This document shows positions 32,197 through 57,805 of a DNA stretch of 64,000 nucleotides, in pieces. Source of the DNA: Rikenellaceae bacterium (GTDB lineage: Bacteria > Bacteroidota > Bacteroidia > Bacteroidales > Rikenellaceae); assembly GCA_017935625.1 (NCBI GenBank), contig JAGBHC010000005.1, positions 1-64,000 of the forward strand, in the 5' to 3' direction. Both the position numbers and the translations under genes were made by a program. Each line of letters begins with the position of its first letter. Position 1 is the first letter of the stretch. The notes beneath the pieces were generated by a model. It searched no databases and was not told the DNA's origin. It was given only the letters and a program-made list of their open reading frames with translations.

Positions 32197-33171
32197 TTAT
32201 ATTTGTTCTGTCTTTTCGTTTCGGTCGCTGTTCTTTTCGAACGCTTTGACGATGTGTTTCACGAGTTTGTGGCGGATGATGTCGCGGCTGTCGAACCGCA
32301 CGATTCCGATGCCCTCCACTTCGGAGAGCAGCGTGACGGCCTTCATCAGGCCCGAATCCGAGGGCTTGGGCAGGTCGATTTGGGTGACGTCGCCCGTGAC
32401 GATGAATTTGGCATTGCGCCCCATGCGGGTCAGGAACATCTTGATTTGGGGCAGGGTGGTGTTCTGCGCCTCGTCCAGAATGACGAACGCATGGTCGAGC
32501 GTCCGGCCGCGCATGTAGGCCAGCGGGGCTATCTGCACGGTTCCCTCGTCGAGGTATTTGCTCAGCTTGGCCGCCGGAATCATGTCGTTGAGCGCATCGT
32601 ACAGCGGCTGGAGATAGGGGTCGAGCTTTTCCTTCATGTCGCCGGGCAGGAATCCCAGCTTTTCGCCGGCCTCCACGGCCGGACGGGTGAGGATGATGCG
32701 CTTGACCTCTTTCTCTTTCAGCGCTTTGACGGCCAGGGCTATGGCGGTGTAGGTCTTGCCCGACCCGGCCGGTCCCACGGCGAATATCAGGTCGTTCTCG
32801 GCATAGGACGAGACCAGGCTGCGCTGGTGGTCGGTGCGGGCCCTGATTACGGTGCCGTTGTTGCCGTAGAGTATCACGTCGCTTTCGGAGGGCTGCGGCG
32901 AATCGGACGAGGCGTCGAATCCGCGGCTGAAGCACTGTTCGACGACCTCCTTGGAGAGGTGTCCGTATTTGTCGCAATAGCATATCAGTCCGTTGAACTG
33001 GCGTTCGAAACGTTCGATTTCGGCATCGTCGCCGAGGAGTGTGATTGTCGAACCGCGTGCGACGATTTTCAGTTTCGGGAACAGTCCCCGGATGGTCTCC
33101 AGATGGACGTTCGCCGTTCCGTAGAGCTCCCGGGGGTCGATTCCTTCGACTGCGATTTTCTTTTCGGCCAT
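32197..33171 (-). CDS. phoH: PhoH-like ATPase
   Basis: 324 residues from ATG 33171 ([10 protein letters not shown]). A short N-terminal RNA-binding-like region precedes the PhoH domain with Walker A GPAGSGKT (133-140), [16 protein letters not shown] and Walker [10 protein letters not shown] cytoplasmic P-loop ATPase linked in other bacteria to RNA metabolism near ybeY. Located between the outer-membrane protein gene and purC on the same strand. Confidence 0.93.
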
Positions 33172-33187
33172 AGCGAACTCCCTGTTT

Positions 33188-33790
33188 TTAGAAGAGATAA
33201 CCGACACTGAACTGCCAGCTGTTGAATCCCGCCTTCACCGGATACGAGGGACTGGAGCTGTTCACCAGGTCGAGAATCACCTGCTGGGTGCTTTTCGAGA
33301 ACTGGCCGTGGTAGCGGACGTCGAGCGTCACCTTGCGCAGGTCGATGCCGATGCCGGCCATGTAGGTGACGGCGGGACGGGTGGGGACCACCTGGGTGTT
33401 GCGGCTCGAGGAGGCGTCGTCGGAGAGGTTGAAGACGGGGCCCGCGGCCACCCTTATCAGGTTGAACAGCTTGCCCGACACCAGCACCGGCACGTCCCAG
33501 GAGTTGATGCGCGCTTTGGTCGATAGGCGGCTGTTTTTCTCCAGCAGCGTGTAGTTGGTGCGCGAATAGATGAGCTCCGGCTGGATGGTCACCACTCCCA
33601 GGTGCACCCGGCTCTGGAGGCCGAGGTGGAATCCGATGTCGGACGACACGGTCCAGTCTTTCATCTTGGAGGAGAGGTTGGTCGCCTGTGCGGTGACGCC
33701 GCCTTTGACACCGAAGCGTATGGGGCTCTTGGCCTCAGCGCCGGTGATGGCCGCGGCGGCCATCAATATCAGAAGAATCGTTTTTTTCAT
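33188..33790 (-). CDS. Porin-family outer-membrane beta-barrel protein
   Basis: 200 residues. A clean signal peptide (MKKTILLILMAAAAITGAEA) is followed by alternating hydrophobic and polar strands of an OmpX/OmpW-like eight-stranded barrel, beginning IRFGVKGGVTAQATNL, and ending in an aromatic strand (WQFSVGYLF) as the BAM signal requires. ATG 33790 was chosen because it gives the signal peptide and follows a promoter. Role not known; it is the first gene of a run toward phoH and purC. Confidence 0.85.
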   Translation of the reverse strand: MKKTILLILMAAAAITGAEAKSPIRFGVKGGVTAQATNLSSKMKDWTVSSDIGFHLGLQSRVHLGVVTIQPELIYSRTNYTLLEKNSRLSTKARINSWDVPVLVSGKLFNLIRVAAGPVFNLSDDASSSRNTQVVPTRPAVTYMAGIGIDLRKVTLDVRYHGQFSKSTQQVILDLVNSSSPSYPVKAGFNSWQFSVGYLF

Positions 33791-33825
33791 CGTTGCGATT
33801 GTTTTATGTCCGAATCTATCGAATG

Positions 33826-33833
33826 CAAAAATA
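33826..33833 (-). promoter_or_regulatory. Promoter -7 box of the beta-barrel gene
   Basis: TATTTTTG on the minus strand, 36 bp before the ATG at 33790. Confidence 0.6.
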
Positions 33834-33845
33834 GGTAAAAAGTTC

Positions 33846-35006
33846 TTATTTTTCATGAATATTTATGCGGAATGCGTAATATAGGAGGTAACATACGCAG
33901 AGCAGCACCGCGACGACTCCTCCGGCGGAACTCTTCACGGCCTCCGTGAGGCCGTTCATGAGCAGGGGCAGGACGGCTCCGCCGCAGATGGCCATAATCA
34001 TCACGCCCGAAATCTCGTTGCTGCGCTCGGGCAGGTGCCGCATGGCCACGGCATAGACGGTGGAGAAGGTGCACGAGAGCGAGAAGCCGAGCAGGGCGGC
34101 CAGGGTCATTATCGCGGCGTGGGAGGCGGCCGGCAGCAGCAGCGCCGCGGCGCAGAGCGTGAGCAGGATGTTGCCTCTCATGTATTTGACGTCCGACAGC
34201 CGGGCGAGTACGGGGATGCCGATGAGCGCTCCGGCGATGCGGGCGACGAAATAGACCGACGACCCCAGTCCGGCGCTCTCCACGCTCTCGGCGCACCGTT
34301 CGATGAGCAGTTTGGGGATGAGCGTGTTGATGCAGACATCGCAGCCGATGAAACAGAAGATGCCCCCGAAGCTGAGCAGCACGGTGCGGTCTGCGAGTAC
34401 GGACATCGTCCGCCGGAGTCCCGGAGCCGGCGCTCCGCCGCTGCGGTCGGAGGGCACCGACCGTTGCAGCCAGACGAGCGACAACACCGTCAGACCGGCA
34501 TAGGCGGGGAACATGTACTCCCAGTGTCCGGTTTTCGCGGCGAAGAAGGCTGCGACGAAGGGCGAGCAGACCGAGGCGATGTTGCGCATGAGCTGTCCGG
34601 CGGTGAGCGAGCTGGTGGCCCGGGAGGCGGGAACGAGCGTGGTTACCAGCGGGTTGAGCGACACCTGGAGCGCCGTGTTGCCGATGCCTATGAGGGCGAA
34701 TCCGGCCAGACATCCTCCCAGGTCGTACCTGAGCAGCGGGATGAGAAGACCCGCCACCGTGACCAGGTTGCCCGCCTGCACCACGGCTTTGCGGCCGATG
34801 CGGTTCATGAGCATGGCGATGGGTATCGAAAGCACGAGAAACCACGCGAACACCATCATCGGAAGCAGGCTGCTCAGGGTGTCGCCGATGCCGAAGTCGC
34901 GCTGGATGTACGAAGTCCCGAATCCGACCATGTCGCTGAAGCCCACTATCAGAAAGGCGTAGAGCACGGCTGCGAGGGACGATGTTTTGATTTGGGGTGC
35001 GGTCAT
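33846..35006 (-). CDS. Major facilitator superfamily transporter (FucP-like)
   Basis: 386 residues from ATG 35006, which follows a promoter carried by a dispersed repeat. About 12 hydrophobic segments in two halves; the loop between helices 2 and 3 reads LMNRIGRKAVVQAGN (the MFS A-motif region), and the central loop is near residue 190 (SVPSDRSGGAPAPG). The pattern is closest to the sugar/FucP type common in Bacteroidales. Substrate not predictable. No sugar operon adjoins it. Confidence 0.85.
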   Translation of the reverse strand: MTAPQIKTSSLAAVLYAFLIVGFSDMVGFGTSYIQRDFGIGDTLSSLLPMMVFAWFLVLSIPIAMLMNRIGRKAVVQAGNLVTVAGLLIPLLRYDLGGCLAGFALIGIGNTALQVSLNPLVTTLVPASRATSSLTAGQLMRNIASVCSPFVAAFFAAKTGHWEYMFPAYAGLTVLSLVWLQRSVPSDRSGGAPAPGLRRTMSVLADRTVLLSFGGIFCFIGCDVCINTLIPKLLIERCAESVESAGLGSSVYFVARIAGALIGIPVLARLSDVKYMRGNILLTLCAAALLLPAASHAAIMTLAALLGFSLSCTFSTVYAVAMRHLPERSNEISGVMIMAICGGAVLPLLMNGLTEAVKSSAGGVVAVLLCVCYLLYYAFRINIHEK

Positions 35007-35029
35007 GTCGTTTTTCTGTTTGGTCTTGT

Positions 35030-35092
35030 CAAATATACGGAATATTCGGTGAAAAACGAAACCCCGGGGGCGGTTCGGCCGCAAAGCGATTG
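35030..35092 (-). repeat. Promoter-bearing dispersed repeat, copy upstream of the MFS gene
   Basis: On the minus strand this copy runs from AATCGCTTTGCGGCCG through a palindromic AACCGCCCCCGGGGTT to TTTCGTTTTTCACCGAAT and ends in the -7 box TATATTTG (35030-35037), 24 bp before the MFS ATG. The outer part of the unit is diverged. Only one copy is recognisable here. Confidence 0.75.
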
Positions 35093-35187
35093 GGCGTCGG
35101 GCCGCAACGGCGTGTCCGGGTCGGGGCGAAATCCGATAAAAAGCGTGCAAAACCGTCGTGCCGGCCCGCTGTTTCAAAAAATTGAGC

Positions 35188-35195
35188 TATCTTTG
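35188..35195 (+). promoter_or_regulatory. Promoter -7 box of der
   Basis: TATCTTTG, 26 bp before the ATG at 35221. Confidence 0.65.
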
Positions 35196-35220
35196 CAGCG
35201 CTAATTTTAAAGATTGGATT

Positions 35221-36528
35221 ATGAGTTTGGTAGCCATTGTAGGCCGTCCTAATGTCGGCAAGAGCACCTTGTTCAACCGCATGGTGGGAATGAGGCAGGC
35301 CATTGTCGATTCCACGGCAGGAACGACCCGCGACCGCCATTACGGAAAGTCGGACTGGAACGGCCGCGAGTTTTCGGTGATAGACACCGGAGGATATACG
35401 GTCAATGACGACGACGTGTTCGAAGACGAAATACGCAAACAGGTGATGCTGGCCATCGACGAGGCCGATGTCATTCTGTTTCTGGTGGAGGTGGGCACCG
35501 GCATCACCGACCTGGACATGATGATGGCCGACATCCTGCGGCGCACCTCCAAGAAGGTGCTTCTGGTGGTCAATAAGGTCGATAATTACGACCAGATATA
35601 CGGTTCCCACGAGTTCTATTCGTTCGGACTGGGAGAGCCCATCACCATCAGCTCGATGAGCGGCAGCGGCACGGGCGAACTGATGGACGCCATTCTCGAG
35701 GCGCTGCCCCGGGAGGAGAGACCCGCAGAGCAGGAAGAGGAGCTGCCCCGCATTACGGTGGTCGGCCGTCCCAACGTGGGCAAGTCGTCTCTGACCAATG
35801 CGCTGCTGGGCGAGGAGCGCAACATCGTCACCCCGGTGGCCGGCACCACGCGCGACTCCGTGCACACGCGCTACAACAAGTTCGGCATGGATTTCTATCT
35901 GGTCGATACGGCCGGCATGCGCAAGAAGGGCAAGGTGACCGAAGACCTCGAGTTCTATTCGGTGATGCGTTCCATCCGGGCCATCGAGAATTCCGACGTC
36001 TGCATCCTGATGCTCGACGCCTCGCAGGGCATCGAGTCGCAGGACATGAACATATTCAACCTGGCGGTGCGCAACCGCAAGGGGTGCGTGATTGTGGTGA
36101 ACAAGTGGGACCTGGTGGAGAAGGAGAACAACACCATGAAGGAGTGGCGCGAGTTCCTCTCCCAGAAGCTGTCGCCCTTCAACGACATTCCGGTCGTCTT
36201 CACTTCGGTGCTCAACAAGCAGCGCATCTTCGATGTGTTGCAGCAGGCCGTGCGGGTCTATCACTCGCGCCGGCGCCGGATTCCCACTTCGGAGTTCAAC
36301 GACTATATGCTGCCCATCATCGAGCAGACGCCTCCGCCGTCGAACAAGGGAAAATACATCCGCATCAAGTATGCCATGCAGCTGCCGAGTCCGACGCCCG
36401 CCTTCGCGTTCTTCGTCAATCTGCCCCAGTACATCAAGGAGCCCTACCGCCGCTTCATCGAGAACAAGATTCGCGAGCGGTGGGATTTCAGCGGGGTTCC
36501 CGTGCAGATTTATTTCCGGCAGAAATAG
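35221..36528 (+). CDS. der: Ribosome biogenesis GTPase Der (EngA)
   Basis: 435 residues, an essential GTPase of 50S assembly. Two tandem G domains: GRPNVGKST (8-16) with DTGGY and NKVD, then GRPNVGKSS (about 182-190) with [10 protein letters not shown] and NKWD, followed by the C-terminal KH-like domain ending YFRQK. The start at ATG 35221 follows its own promoter; the frame upstream is not coding. A terminator follows at 36558. Confidence 0.97.
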
Positions 36529-36623: not shown

Positions 36624-37349
36624 TTACAGCTCCTTGAGCAACCCTCTTATCACCACCGACGCACAGCCGCAGCCGAATACGGCGGGCAGGTAGGAGATGG
36701 TGCCGACGTTCGATTTCTTGTTGGTCTCCTCGCAGAGTATCATGGCCCCTTCGCGGATGGGCTCGGGCGAGAAGACGGCCTGGAAACCGCTGCGAATCCC
36801 CAGCTTGTGGAGCCTTTTGCGCAGCATGTGGGCGAGCGGGCAGTGGTGCGTCCGGGCGATGTCGCGTATCTCCATGAGCGTGGGGTCGGTCTTGGCTCCG
36901 GCGCCCATGCTGCTCACCACCGGAATGCCCCGGTCGAGGCATCCCTTGATGAGATTGACTTTGGGTGAAAGCGTGTCGATGGCATCCACCGCATAGTCGA
37001 AACGGGCCGAGTCGAGCAGCTGGTCGGTGGCCTCGTCCCGGATGTAGCGTTCGAGGACCGTGAGTTCGATTTGCGGATTGATGTCTCTGAGGCGGGCGGC
37101 CAGCACCCGGGCCTTGCTCTGCCCGACGGTCGAGCGGAGGGCCACCAGCTGCCGGTTCAGGTTGCTTTCGGCCACGCAGTCGGCGTCCGCGATGGTCATC
37201 CGGCCCACGCCGCTGCGGCATATCATTTCGGCTGCGTAGGCTCCCACGCCGCCCAGTCCCACCACCAGCACATGGGCGTGCCGTATCGTTTCGAGCTTTT
37301 CGTCTCCCAGCAGCAGCTGCGTGCGGGAGAGCCATTCGGGTGTGGTCAT
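36624..37349 (-). CDS. tcdA: tRNA threonylcarbamoyladenosine dehydratase
   Basis: 241 residues of the ThiF/E1-like family. It cyclises t6A37 of tRNA to ct6A with ATP. The nucleotide-binding region reads VLVVGLGGVGAYAAEMICRSG, then DADCVAESNLNRQ and DAIDTLSPK; the C-terminus is FGCGCASVVIRGLL. It overlaps the tatD-family gene start/stop by 4 bp, so the two are co-translated. A ThiF/MoeB identity is less likely given the C-terminus and the absence of thiamine or molybdopterin genes. Confidence 0.9.
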   Translation of the reverse strand: MTTPEWLSRTQLLLGDEKLETIRHAHVLVVGLGGVGAYAAEMICRSGVGRMTIADADCVAESNLNRQLVALRSTVGQSKARVLAARLRDINPQIELTVLERYIRDEATDQLLDSARFDYAVDAIDTLSPKVNLIKGCLDRGIPVVSSMGAGAKTDPTLMEIRDIARTHHCPLAHMLRKRLHKLGIRSGFQAVFSPEPIREGAMILCEETNKKSNVGTISYLPAVFGCGCASVVIRGLLKEL

Positions 37350-38032
37350 AGTCTTCGTTCCGGGTCGTTTGCGGTTAGCTGCGTATCGTCCGTCGCGGGG
37401 AATATACGCTTGAAATTCCGATACATGTCGATTGCCAGAGCCTCCGGTTCCGTGCCGCGCACCGCGGCGACTCGGGCATACATCGCTTCGATGGTGTCGT
37501 CGTTGTCGTCGGTTTCGGTGAATATCCGCTCGGAGGGCAGGTTGCGCAGGGCCTCGACCGTGCGCGGCGAGCGCAGGCTGCGGGGGCCGAAGGAGAGGCA
37601 GTAGCCCCGTTCCGCGGCCAGCTCCGCCTGCCGGACGCTGCCGATGAAGCCGTGGAACACCACGGCCGGCAGGGAGCGGCGTGCCAGTTCGGCCATGGTC
37701 TCCTCGAAAGCCTTCACACAGTGGAGAATGACCGGAAGGGCCAGCTCTTCGGCCGCATCCAGTTGCGCTGCGAACAGGCGTTTCTGAAGTTCCGCGTCGG
37801 CGCGGGCCATGCGGTCGAGTCCGATTTCGCCCACGGCGAGCACTCCGGGTGCGTGCCGCATCTCTTCGATTAGGGCCTGCGGGTCGGCGATGCGCTCCAC
37901 GCTCCAGGGATGGATGCCTTCGGAATGGGGGTAGGGCGGTCGTTCGTGTCCGATGCCCAGCGCGTGGGAAACCAGGCAGAGAGCTCCTCCGTGCATCGTA
38001 TGTGTGTGAATGTTTACGAGTTTACTGTTCAT
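37346..38032 (-). CDS. TatD-family metal-dependent hydrolase
   Basis: 228 residues, TIM-barrel deoxyribonuclease family. Metal residues are visible in NIHTHTMHGG (HxH), VGEIGLD, VILHCVKAF and VFHGFIG, with the late TETDDND aspartate motif. It is slightly shorter than E. coli TatD (260). First gene of a two-gene unit with tcdA, driven by a promoter inside a dispersed repeat. Confidence 0.9.
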   Translation of the reverse strand: MNSKLVNIHTHTMHGGALCLVSHALGIGHERPPYPHSEGIHPWSVERIADPQALIEEMRHAPGVLAVGEIGLDRMARADAELQKRLFAAQLDAAEELALPVILHCVKAFEETMAELARRSLPAVVFHGFIGSVRQAELAAERGYCLSFGPRSLRSPRTVEALRNLPSERIFTETDDNDDTIEAMYARVAAVRGTEPEALAIDMYRNFKRIFPATDDTQLTANDPERRL

Positions 38033-38061: not shown

Positions 38062-38220
38062 CAAATATAGACATATTCGGTGAAAAACGAAAGCGCAGTC
38101 GGCCACCGGCCGGTGTGCGGTCGCTTTGCGATTCGTTTGAGACAAATGTAACTGCTCGCTGAAAAACGGAGACGTGGTCGGCTGCGCCGCCGGTGCAGCC
38201 GTTCTGCGGTTCGTCCGGAG
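38062..38220 (-). repeat. Promoter-bearing dispersed repeat, tandem pair upstream of the TatD gene
   Basis: Two adjoining units: 38062-38142 (81 bp) and 38143-38220 (78 bp, diverged); a third start CAAATG follows at 38221. On the minus strand the proximal unit ends TTTCGTTTTTCACCGAAT then TATATTTG (38062-38069), 30 bp before the ATG. The proximal hairpin core is the palindrome CACCGGCCGGTG; in the distal unit it is GGCTGC...GCAGCC. Confidence 0.8.
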
Positions 38221-38290
38221 CAAATGGGTAAAAATTTTCCGCCGCATGAAAAAAAGGGACGCAGGGCTTTATGTTCCAAAAAAATAAATG

Positions 38291-44331: not shown

Positions 44332-45380
44332 ATTTCAATCGTTACTTCAGGTACGGACGGCGTTTTCCCCGTTGCTTCGAGGAAGAGGCCTTTCTGTTGC
44401 GCTCCTGGAGCGTATATTTCCTTTGTCGCCGGGGAGAGGAGGATTGGTCTCCTCAATTGCAAAGGGTGTCGGGGATTTCGTCGCTGCTTGGGAAGTAGCG
44501 GGAAAATTCGTTTGTTACTCTGCTATTTGGGAAGTGTGTCTCCGGTTGTTGGGAGAGGAGGATTCGTCTCCTCAGTTGCAGGTGTGTCGGGGATTTCGTA
44601 GTTGTGGGAGGTGTCGGGGAAGGTTCGTTTCTCTACTATCAGAAGTGTGTCCTATTTCCGTTGTCGCGCAGAGGTGAGGGGCGAAAATGCTGTTCTGTGC
44701 TTGAAGCGTATTGGAAATTTTATCTTTATCAATTGCTTTAGATGTAGCGCGAAATGCTGTTATTATTTGTGCTTTATGATGTGTAATATATCAGTGTTGC
44801 CTTGTCCGACTCGCTCAGTCTGCCGTTTCCGCTCGCTTTGTCCGGCACACTTGTTTCGATACGGGAGTAGGTCGCTGTCCACTGCCTCGAATAGACTCCC
44901 TCCGTGGCTTGGGATGCGACGGGTCTGAGGAGCTTGGCTTCACAGTTGTTTGAAGCGTGTTGGAAATCTCCATCTTCCGCTATTGCTTTAGGTGTAGTGT
45001 GAAATGATTTCATATTGTGTGTTTTATGATATAAAATATATCCGCCTTGCCCGACTTACTCTGTTCATTTTCTTCTGTCGTTGGTGCATCGTGGAAAACT
45101 GATTTCAATTGTCGCAGGGAGGATGGTGCGGGAATTCGTTCTCTCGGTTGCTTGAAGTGTGCCGTGGAAAATCTGTTCTCTTCGTCGGAGGCATCGGAGA
45201 AATTTTGTCTTCTTTGTGCGTCGGGGATGCAGGCCGGGCGTTTCGAGGGGATGCGGGCCGGACGTTTCGAGGGGATGCGGGGAGGACCGGAGAAAGGGTC
45301 GGGGAGAGCGTTCGAGAGTGGGGCGTGGAACACGTGCGAACTAAAATTAACGAAAGTATTGATTTTTGAGATATTATTGT
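44332..45380. repeat. Repeat-filled non-coding spacer between nqrF and the plug-domain gene
   Basis: About 1 kb without a supported gene. It contains two families of imperfect direct repeats. The first is about 85 bp, at 44431-44515 and 44551-44634, each starting GGGAGAGGAGGATT and carrying GTGTCGGGGATTTCGT. The second is about 110 bp, at 44701-44810 and 44950-45055, each holding TTGAAGCGT, ATTGCTTTAG, GTGTAG-like and TTTTATGAT stretches and ending in CCGAC. A 24-bp tandem repeat follows at 45224-45282. No open frame here looks like a protein family. Confidence 0.6.
45224..45282. repeat. 24-bp tandem repeat
   Basis: Two near-identical 24-bp units (45224-45247 and 45248-45271), of the type GGGATGCGGGCCGGACGTTT, and a third partial unit. 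In one frame it encodes MRAGRFEG repeats, but the frame is not a convincing gene. Confidence 0.75.
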
Positions 45381-51796: not shown

Positions 51797-51826
51797 AGGC
51801 GGCAGATGATTCTGCCGCCTTTTTTT
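51797..51826 (+). terminator. Strong terminator downstream of secG
   Basis: AGGCGGCAGA pairs perfectly with TCTGCCGCCT across TGAT, then six T. It is about 170 bp after the secG stop. Confidence 0.9.
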
Positions 51827-51830
51827 GTTT

Positions 51831-52079
51831 CTTGTCCGATAGTTGCCAACGAAACCGAAAACATGTTCTTCCGGCATCCCGCCGATACTGCTTTCGATAT
51901 CCAGCACAACCAATCGAAATTCAGTTTCGGAACGCGAGGCAGCAGCGGATTTTGCCGTCCTGTCCGATAGTCGCCAGCGAAATCGAAAACATGTTCATCC
52001 CTGCATCCTGCCGGTACATGCTTTCGATATCCATCCAGTACAATCACTCGGGATTCAATTTCGGGACGCGAGGCAGCGA
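51831..52079 (-). pseudogene. Two tandem decayed fragments of an XRE-regulator gene
   Basis: Copies at 51831-51944 and 51960-52079 read on the minus strand as relatives of the middle of the XRE gene at 53326 (its bases about 53469-53586). Shared protein text: LPRVPKLNFDW for RFPKLNSDW, and KNMFSVSLATIG for KNVSSVSLANG. Both copies have lost the helix-turn-helix and carry shifts, so they cannot encode a working regulator. Confidence 0.75.
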
Positions 52080-52886
52080 AGTTTTTCGATTCATTGTCCG
52101 GTTGCGGATGTTTTTGCTCGGGGAGGCTCGACTCGCATATTCCGGAAAAGTTCCCGGTCGGGGTGCGGGGGCTTGTCGCTTTCCGAGTACTCGGTGGAAC
52201 CTTCCGATTCGCTTCAGCCTTTCGAAAGCGACGTTGCTGGATAGCCGAGATTCGCAGTTGTTTTTGTTTTTCTTTTTTTTTGTTAGTTCCCGGGTGAGTA
52301 TTGGAAGTGACTCCGGTTTCTGCGTTGTCATGCACTGATACGTTGTCCCGGCCCGATTGATTCTGCGGATTCCTTTTTCGGCGGTTTGGGGACTGTGGTT
52401 CTGTTCCCGTTTGCGTGCACTGTTTTATTCTCCGTGTCCTTGTGCGGGGGGCTTTTCGTTGTACGCTGTGGTGCTGTCGTGTTGGTGTTGTCGCCATTCT
52501 GTTGCAGCCTCGCTGCAAGAGTGGCGAAGGTGATTTCATGTGTATTGTTTTTCCGATTTGCGTTTGCGGTGCGGAACGGAGCTTCGTGTATGCGGAGCCT
52601 CCGATGCTCGTGTCCGGACGGCGGCCATCTACCATCTCTACTTGTCGAAGGAGAGTAGTGAATAGTCGAGCGGCCTGCTGTGCCAGCCGGGCCCGGGAAA
52701 AATGACAGCGCATTATTCGGCCGGCATGTGGCTAAACTAAAGTAAAACTTTAAGTGTTCTCGGGGCTGCAATTATTCCGGTCCCGGCTTGAAATTTTGCC
52801 CGGAACTTCTTCGTGATTGAAGAGGAAGCCATTGTTTTAATACTTGTTGGAGGTTGGGGGATAAGTCAGAAGAGTAGGGTAGTTGT

Positions 52887-55234: not shown

Positions 55235-55397
55235 AGGAATTCGGAAATGGCGGCCGCACGCCGACGACTTTCGGCTGACTTCGTTCGTGTTTTTCAGCGA
55301 ACGTCCCGCTTTTTGTCTTGAACGTATTTTGATTGCGACCGCCTTTCCGGCTCGGGCTGGCGGTGTTTTCGTTTTCGTCGAATATTGGCTATCTTTG
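55235..55397 (+). repeat. Promoter-bearing dispersed repeat, tandem pair upstream of znuA
   Basis: The proximal unit is 55316-55397 (82 bp): it starts TCTTGAACG, has an ACCGCC...GGCGGT hairpin, then TTTTCGTTTTCGTCGAATAT, and ends in the -7 box TATCTTTG (55390-55397), 23 bp before the znuA ATG. A diverged distal unit ends at 55315 (TTTTTCAGCGAACG, then a box of the type TTTTTG); its left edge near 55235 is approximate. Confidence 0.7.
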
Positions 55398-55419: not shown

Positions 55420-56271
55420 ATGCGAAAAATAGTATTAGCGACAGCGGTTTTATTGTCGGGTGTGTGGGGCTGTGTTTCGGAGCGGAATGCGAAGCCTGAA
55501 TTCGTAGCTACGATATTGCCAGTCAAGTACATCGTGGAGACGATTACCGGCGGAGATATGAAGGTGAACGTGCTGGTCCCTCCCGGAGCCGGCCCCGAAA
55601 CCTATGAGCCTACCCCACTTCAGATGGTGGAGTGCGAGCGGGCTGAACTGTTGTTCTCCACCGGTTTGATAGATTTCGAAAAGACGATGACCGAGAGAAT
55701 CGGCGGCAGAGCCGAGGGGGGCGTGGTGAATCTGAGTCAGGGAATCGAGCTGGCGGAAGGTGCATGCGGACATGTTCATGACACGCACCATTCGCACGTG
55801 CACGGGGCGGACCCCCATATATGGCTGTCGGTTCGCAACCTGAAGGTGATGGCGGCCAATGCCTGGCGGGCAATCGAAGCGCGTTATCCCGATTCCACCC
55901 GCTACCGCGAGAATTTCACAGAACTTGTGTCGGTTCTCGATTCGGTTGATAGACAAGTTTCCGCACGTATTACCGAAGGTAAATATTTAATTACGTATCA
56001 CCCTGTACTGACCTACTATGCGCGGGATTACGGATTGCATCAGCTGGCTATCGAGCAGGATGGCAAGGAGCCGTCGGCCGAGCATCTGCGGGCCGTAATA
56101 GATACGGGCAAAATGATGGGCATCGGGACGGTGTTCTTCCAGAGCCAGTTCCCTGCGGCTTCGGTGGAGACGGTGGCGGCGGATTGCGGTGCGGAAGCGG
56201 TGGAAATAGACCCCCTGGCAGAAAATGTGGTCGATAATATATTGAGTATAACCGATTTGATAACACGATAG
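55420..56271 (+). CDS. znuA: Zinc ABC transporter substrate-binding lipoprotein
   Basis: 283 residues. Lipobox VWGC with Cys18. Cluster A-1 fold of TroA/ZnuA: ATILPVKYIVETITGGD near the N-terminus, a His-rich loop at about 118-133 (HVHDTHHSHVHGADPHIW) typical of zinc capture, YLITYHPVLTYYARDYG and EPSAEHLRAVID, and the Asp ligand near the end (VEIDPLAENV). It delivers Zn2+ to ZnuB/ZnuC. znuC follows after 3 bp; the permease lies apart at 63031. Confidence 0.93.
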   Translation: MRKIVLATAVLLSGVWGCVSERNAKPEFVATILPVKYIVETITGGDMKVNVLVPPGAGPETYEPTPLQMVECERAELLFSTGLIDFEKTMTERIGGRAEGGVVNLSQGIELAEGACGHVHDTHHSHVHGADPHIWLSVRNLKVMAANAWRAIEARYPDSTRYRENFTELVSVLDSVDRQVSARITEGKYLITYHPVLTYYARDYGLHQLAIEQDGKEPSAEHLRAVIDTGKMMGIGTVFFQSQFPAASVETVAADCGAEAVEIDPLAENVVDNILSITDLITR

Positions 56272-57307: not shown

Positions 57308-57589
57308 CTATTTGTTCAGTGCGCTCAGGGTTTCGAACATGGCGTCCACCTGAGTGAACATTTCCTGACGGATAAATGCGAAGTGCTTCTTCACCAGGCT
57401 CTTGTTGTGCTTTTCTGCCGGGTTGTTCACCTTTTCGAAGAGGTCGTTGCGCAGGGCTACGGCTTTCTGCATGACGGCTACGATTTCCTCCCGCTTTTCG
57501 GGGTGGAAATAGATGGAAAGATAGCAATCCGAAACCACTTCGCCTACGAGGTAGTCGATATCCTTCTTGATTAATCTTAAACTTGCCAT
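57308..57589 (-). CDS. Small conserved protein, function unknown
   Basis: 93 residues, all-helical in look: ASLRLIKKDIDYLVGEVVSDC, then FHPEKREEIVAVMQKAVALRNDL and a Lys-rich C-terminal half. No signal or membrane segment. I believe similar short proteins are widespread in Bacteroidota, with unknown function. It is alone, with its promoter inside a tandem repeat. Confidence 0.8.
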   Translation of the reverse strand: MASLRLIKKDIDYLVGEVVSDCYLSIYFHPEKREEIVAVMQKAVALRNDLFEKVNNPAEKHNKSLVKKHFAFIRQEMFTQVDAMFETLSALNK

Positions 57590-57614: not shown

Positions 57615-57776
57615 CAAATATACTAATATTCGATGAAAAACGAAAGTGTCGTCGGCCGCAGGCCGGTGCACGGTCGCAGAGCGATTCGTTCGAGACAAAT
57701 ATACGAATATTCGATGAAAAACGAAAGTGCCGTCGGCCGCAGGCCGGTGCACGGTCGCAAGGCGATTCGTTCGAGA
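57615..57776 (-). repeat. Promoter-bearing dispersed repeat, tandem 81-bp pair
   Basis: Two near-identical 81-bp units (57615-57695 and 57696-57776) with only a few differences. On the minus strand each reads TCTCGAACGAATCGC, a CGGCC-TGC-GGCCG hairpin, TTTCGTTTTTCATCGAATAT and a -7 box TATATTTG (57615-57622 and 57696-57703). The proximal box is 26 bp from the ATG at 57589. This is the best-preserved copy. Confidence 0.88.
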
Positions 57777-57805
57777 CAGATGTAGAAACGACCTCGGGCA
57801 TTTGT

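Follow-up and report, generated by a model that had tools for sequence, protein, structure and literature searches.

Bacterial MITEs and the Correia/NEMIS, ERIC, and BOX repeats are small and non-autonomous, carry an outward-facing promoter box, and are flanked by direct repeats. Integron attC sites keep their structure while their sequence varies, are bounded by the direct repeats of the core site, and occur in tandem arrays. The repeat unit described here would resemble MITEs and the Correia/NEMIS, ERIC, and BOX repeats in the traits listed, a likeness judged by description and not by sequence. It differs from a classical MITE, however, in that it has no conserved terminal inverted repeats and its outer stem (P1) changes in pairs, and from MITEs and promoter-carrying repeats in that its insertion site would itself be a promoter box. 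With attC it shares conservation of structure over sequence, apparent direct-repeat bounds, and tandem arrays, but it folds as a three-way junction, and no attC consensus boxes were seen in unit ends read by eye. Mobile promoters and promoter propagation offer a further parallel, as promoter-bearing DNA would have spread to many genes, although in this case the promoter box would double as the landing site.

Comparison can also be made with the REP/REPIN and RAYT (Y1) system and with IS200/IS605 ends. Like these, the unit is a short, dispersed, intergenic palindrome lying beside a fixed short motif, and a single-strand DNA fold is plausible for it. Unlike them, it comes without a Y1 transposase in five genomes. 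The Y1 (HuH) family PF01797 was absent from the unit's own genome (a draft, 93% complete) and from all four relatives searched, while the same search found PF01797 in 5 of 14 known genomes; a RAYT/REP partner was therefore rejected. Furthermore, the motif adjacent to the unit is a promoter box on both sides, and the unit lies 5' of genes, whereas PMC3733652 places REPs mostly downstream of genes. The same paper describes tagged palindromic repeats, one group of which has no known transposase. A full-text literature search, with most subscription papers outside its coverage, listed nothing that describes an element of this kind in Rikenellaceae.

The repeat units and their distribution

The window, meaning the whole 64,000-nt stretch of Rikenellaceae DNA that was analyzed, holds two units of about 81 bp between a TatD-family gene and the start of an operon that, from its reading frames, we take to be nqr. 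These and the other units of the window are as follows, the strand of a unit being that of its -7 box.

37346 to 38032, minus strand, start at 38032: TatD-family gene faced by the box at 38062 (Pfam PF01026)
38062 to 38142, minus strand: proximal, intact unit (covariance model R1, 95.9 bits, the unit being in the seed alignment; nhmmer, 77.5 bits)
38143 to 38220, minus strand: distal, degenerate unit (covariance model R1, 34.2 bits)
57615 to 57695, minus strand: unit 5' of the small gene 57308-57589 (covariance model and array placement)
57696 to 57776, minus strand: tandem unit, followed by the box remnant CAGATGTA at 57777-57784 (covariance model and far-end box count)
35030 to 35084, minus strand: shortened unit 5' of an MFS gene (33846-35006) (31 bits)
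55316 to 55397, plus strand: degenerate unit 5' of znuA (55516-56271) (22.6 bits)
55248 to 55303: weaker degenerate unit, companion of the unit at 55316-55397

The covariance model gave 81 unit matches at E ≤ 0.1 in the 2.18-Mb draft of the genome itself. Copies also occur in Tidjanibacter-type relatives, and the only named records with a match are those of Candidatus Tidjanibacter gallistercoris. The distribution is patchy: units were found in 5 of 268 genomes of the family by covariance model, and the exact left-end pattern was found in 4 of the 268, with no matches for a reversed control pattern. The unit pattern had no matches among viral contigs. A sample of 393 genomes of the order yielded a single copy in another family, with 82% identity over 78 nt to a unit of genome G267. 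Convergent reading frames end on either side of this copy, which is not at a promoter and has CAAATAT on each side. This suggests that the element targets a sequence rather than promoter activity and is able to cross family borders.

A second subfamily in the same genome starts with ATATTCGATGAAAAAAATAG (L034, L035, L010:1712-1748, and the right flank of L003) and, compared with the main type, looks closer to the copies in G267. The assembly breaks within unit arrays at the contig ends C33 (L009)/C14 (L014) and C41 (L016)/C4 (L025). Because the unit types are nearly identical at the end of C33 and the start of C14, and likewise at the end of C41 and the start of C4, these contigs probably join and the array sizes are underestimates. 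Two other tandem repeats lie in the window. One, at 51821-52100, has about two copies of 134 bp and is unrelated to the unit; the other, at 45223-45281, has 2.5 copies of 24 bp with 94% matches.

Covariation of the folded unit

A preliminary description of the window held that a hairpin in the repeat keeps its pairing while its sequence changes, and our analysis bears this out. The strings it quoted are all present: CGGCC-GCA-GGCCG on the plus strand at 57 kb (TGC loop on the minus strand), CACCGGCCGGTG in the proximal and GGCTGC...GCAGCC in the distal unit at 38 kb, ACCGCC...GGCGGT in the 55.3-kb unit, and AACC...GGTT in the 35.0-kb unit. What did not hold was the treatment of these strings as one helix, for CACCGGCCGGTG and GGCTGC...GCAGCC lie off the register of the consensus stem CGGCC/GGCCG, and the unit at 35 kb is a shortened copy. 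In the proximal unit the structure comprises the following parts.

38064 to 38077, no strand assigned: P0, hairpin AATAT/ATATT enclosing the -7 box (single-strand DNA fold; pairing listed over units)
38085 to 38138, no strand assigned: three-way junction (covariation and single-strand DNA fold)
38085-38091 with 38132-38138: P1
38093-38096 with 38115-38118: P2a
38100-38104 with 38108-38112: P2b
38121-38124 with 38128-38131: P3

The first alignment consisted of 53 chosen units aligned with MAFFT by sequence only, in which 20 pairs in four helices were compared with 500 shuffles. The consensus helices are P1 AAACGAA/TTCGTTT, P2 GCGC..CGGCC/GGCCG..GTGC, and P3 TCGC/GCGA. Paired cells made up 90.4% of the total, against 83.8% in shuffles, two-sided changes were seen at 14 of the 20 pairs against 7.6, and the covariation score was 0.261 against 0.137; none of the shuffles attained the observed value for pairing, two-sided changes, or covariation. 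When the partner was slid by one to three columns, only 26-40% of cells remained paired. For the second test, 81 units were used and null columns were simulated on the tree of units. Thirteen of the 20 pairs reached p ≤ 0.014, and canonical cells totaled 1383, whereas the 400 null sets averaged 1231 with a maximum of 1378. The seven pairs that failed are two near-invariant pairs, the loop-closing pair of P2b, two pairs in P1, and two in P3. When the 2,850 column pairs were ranked by APC-corrected mutual information, stem pairs took the first five places. Covariation in this larger set of copies, assessed with programs other than R-scape, therefore exceeds both chance and tree structure. It is also present in the 27 single units, with double changes at 16 of 20 pairs (shuffle mean 9.4, largest 15).

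The same helices were recovered from a single sequence. As single-stranded DNA, 38062-38142 folds into exactly those that covary (z -3.2, with none of 200 shuffles as good), and its DNA fold matches the covarying structure on both strands, with an additional hairpin over the -7 box. P1 varies by pairs among copies (AACGAA/TTCGTT, AATGAA/TTCATT, ACCGAA/TTCGGT, and GGGCG/CGCCC).

A strand-symmetric inverted repeat 5' of a -7 box could also be a regulon operator, with a DNA-binding protein reading the palindrome 5' of the promoter; the units would then be regulatory sites passed on by descent. The sequence of the arms, however, varies with pairing kept, which a sequence-reading protein would hardly permit, and loops and spacers differ in length between units. 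We return to this alternative with the orthologous genes.

Strand symmetry of the changes

The preliminary description further proposed that the hairpin works as RNA, in the leader of a transcript from the distal promoter. Its geometry was right: the units are in tandem, each bears a -7 box pointing at the gene and placed ahead of its hairpin, and the putative distal promoter lies 5' of the proximal hairpin. The covariation, moreover, is real, and RNA folding of the transcribed strand of 57696-57776 (minus) reproduces the covarying structure. A selected RNA, however, would tolerate G·U but not A·C on the transcribed strand. Counted on the tree for the plus strand, changes from Watson-Crick pairs led to G·T in 50 events and to A·C in 56 (p 0.63), and mismatch cells numbered 67 G·T and 84 A·C. 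As a control, 30 TPP riboswitches from the same bacterial family were counted with a similar script, their fold being the same whichever strand it was computed from; here the ratio of G·T to A·C was 9:1 by events and 21:1 by cells, and the difference between the unit and the riboswitch was significant (Fisher p 0.017 by events and 3e-6 by cells).

An RNA on the plus strand had been inferred from 122 G·T against 31 A·C cells, but most of these came from three columns. This candidate was rejected and the excess dropped because those columns either form an internal loop or provide another possible partner for the P1 base; it is with the revised pairs that the event balance becomes 50:56.

Other evidence also stands against an RNA leader. 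Single units, which have no tandem neighbor to transcribe through them, covary as strongly, and their mismatch cells are 28 G·T and 43 A·C. The fold takes in the -7 box, which lies outside the unit's own transcript. RNA folding of 38062-38142 does not reproduce the covarying structure, and that of the transcribed strand of 38143-38220 is no better than shuffles (z -0.05). Rfam gave no match at gathering score across the window, and at four unit loci it returned just a tRNA and one sub-threshold snoRNA match. We consider a function in the RNA leader very unlikely, and conclude that the constraint acts on DNA or arises during DNA copying. Because G·T is the better mismatch in folded single-stranded DNA too, an even count of A·C and G·T tests such DNA imperfectly; it therefore points to a cruciform or two-strand process more than to selection on a single strand. 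More generally, covariation by itself is no proof of RNA, and a tally of G·U against A·C, with a riboswitch control, tells RNA from DNA cases.

Strand symmetry is also expected if covariation arose without selection, through quasi-palindrome correction, in which template switching during replication lets one arm be copied from the other. Changes back to Watson-Crick pairs, 23 from A·C and 8 from G·T, fit such a process, as do copies in which several adjacent pairs change jointly (e.g., GGGCG/CGCCC in L040). On the other hand, the asymmetric internal loop adjoining P2b is retained, uncorrected, in most copies, single mismatches are common, and neither the dispersal of the unit nor its conserved left motif, TATTCGNTGAAA, is explained. 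Template switching is thus an unlikely source of the covariation.

Promoter box, orthologous sites, and probable mobility

The consensus of the Bacteroidetes -7 promoter box is TAnnTTTG, as given in PMC7366714. The unit end CAAATATA on the plus strand reads TATATTTG on the gene strand and matches this consensus, so each such end is a candidate promoter feature of the sigma-ABfr type, with its -7 box facing a gene start. Three boxes lie in the 38-kb array.

38062 to 38069, minus strand: -7 box TATATTTG (CAAATATA on the plus strand), 29 nt before the TatD-family gene (match to TAnnTTTG)
38143 to 38150, minus strand: second box (CAAATGTA on the plus strand), at the start of the distal unit
38221 to 38228, minus strand: box remnant (CAAATGGG on the plus strand), at the far end of the array

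The box is exactly CAAATATA in 69 of the best 98 units. It faces a gene start in 52 of 53 arrays (30 of 31 in the genome itself and 22 of 22 in relatives), a count that omits two L070 rows repeating L046, leaves aside three further arrays without a called neighbor there, and depends on crude gene calls from a codon model for which the nqr genes and TatD served as the seed. The neighbor on the far side is randomly oriented in the genome itself (16 plus and 14 minus), and placement thus follows the -7 box. The sole own copy turned from a gene start, L026:1501-1581, has lost its box (CGGATAGA) and kept its stems. Of 73 terminal units, 36 have a box with at most one mismatch at their far end, each of them at the exact junction, compared with 1.9% of 2,289 control places. 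The box may be part of the element rather than a target duplication. Thirty neighboring genes were scanned without a common function emerging; they include TatD, EF-P, RNase HII, GTP cyclohydrolase I, PurT, HemN-like, znuA, and NhaP genes.

Orthologues were sought in three genomes of the Tidjanibacter group (G227, G228, and G229) with 27 joined N-terminal pieces as the query, and 51 orthologous upstream stretches from 18 genes were compared. A unit was present at a clear score in four of them, all in G229; the META gene of G228 has a 17.8-bit match, which may be a remnant and was tallied among the 47 empty stretches. In 31 of these 47, a native TAnnTTTG lies no more than 150 nt from the start. 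The 57-kb gene has a unit in G229 and none in G227: past the upstream stop codon, the box TACTTTTG of G227 sits where G229 has TATATTTG, followed by the unit and a second TATATTT, a context that points to the native box as the one now repeated. At the PLD gene, likewise, G229 is filled, and G228 and G227 are empty with TATATTTG in place. For holB, MFS, M24, and HemW, a strict TAnnTTTG box was found in no relative. Distances from box to start showed a moderate correlation (rho 0.45, p 0.013, over 29 non-independent pairs). Stepwise growth of arrays predicts proximal units fresher than distal ones; 15 of 24 arrays showed this, short of significance (p 0.13). Units also lie near an EngA/Der-like GTPase gene, in the same neighborhood in two genera (L049, L092 in G228, and window 32197-36528).

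In G229, 18 genes were tested, and four of them (PLD, znuA, the 57-kb gene, and the META gene) carry a unit in both genera. This is suggestive of an excess over random insertion and fits shared ancestry or hot spots, and inherited operators of a regulon would leave such a pattern. Units at shared loci, however, resemble other copies within their genome more closely than they resemble one another, which fits independent insertion and homogenization equally and does not suit inherited sites. Since most orthologues also have no unit and the downstream genes have no function in common, a regulon operator seems quite improbable.

The unit is probably a mobile DNA element, small and non-autonomous, with CAAATAT(A) as its insertion site; it would leave a box on both sides and fold as DNA. 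Its body would be about 73 bp, and its target would be complementary to the Bacteroidetes sigma-ABfr -7 box TATATTTG. A fold-dependent reaction would join the element at CAAATAT(A), and each insertion would leave a copy of the box on either side. Because the target is asymmetric and lies at promoters, copies would be placed 5' of genes in one orientation with a -7 box facing the gene, and because further copies could land at either box, tandem arrays would form. The covarying three-way junction would be kept as DNA, either as a folded single strand or as a cruciform, and would most likely be the substrate of a putative recombinase or transposase acting in trans.

Guide pairing is the means by which IS608 recognizes its target. 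A comparable, rather improbable version of the mobile element is one that lands in the transcription bubble, where the single strand bearing the three-way junction would recognize the melted -7 box, join there, and rebuild the promoter each time; the ATATT beside the element's body would pair with the AATAT of the box, as in hairpin P0. If so, RNA polymerase would create the sites for insertion, and the element, in effect a promoter renewing itself, would spread with no REP-type transposase. The main account, that of a mobile element inserting at CAAATAT(A), would mean, if true, that within one bacterial family housekeeping genes such as those for EF-P, RNase HII, and GTP cyclohydrolase I have had their promoters rewired by a DNA element in which structure is kept and sequence is flexible, with the promoter box as its landing site and no REP-kind transposase.
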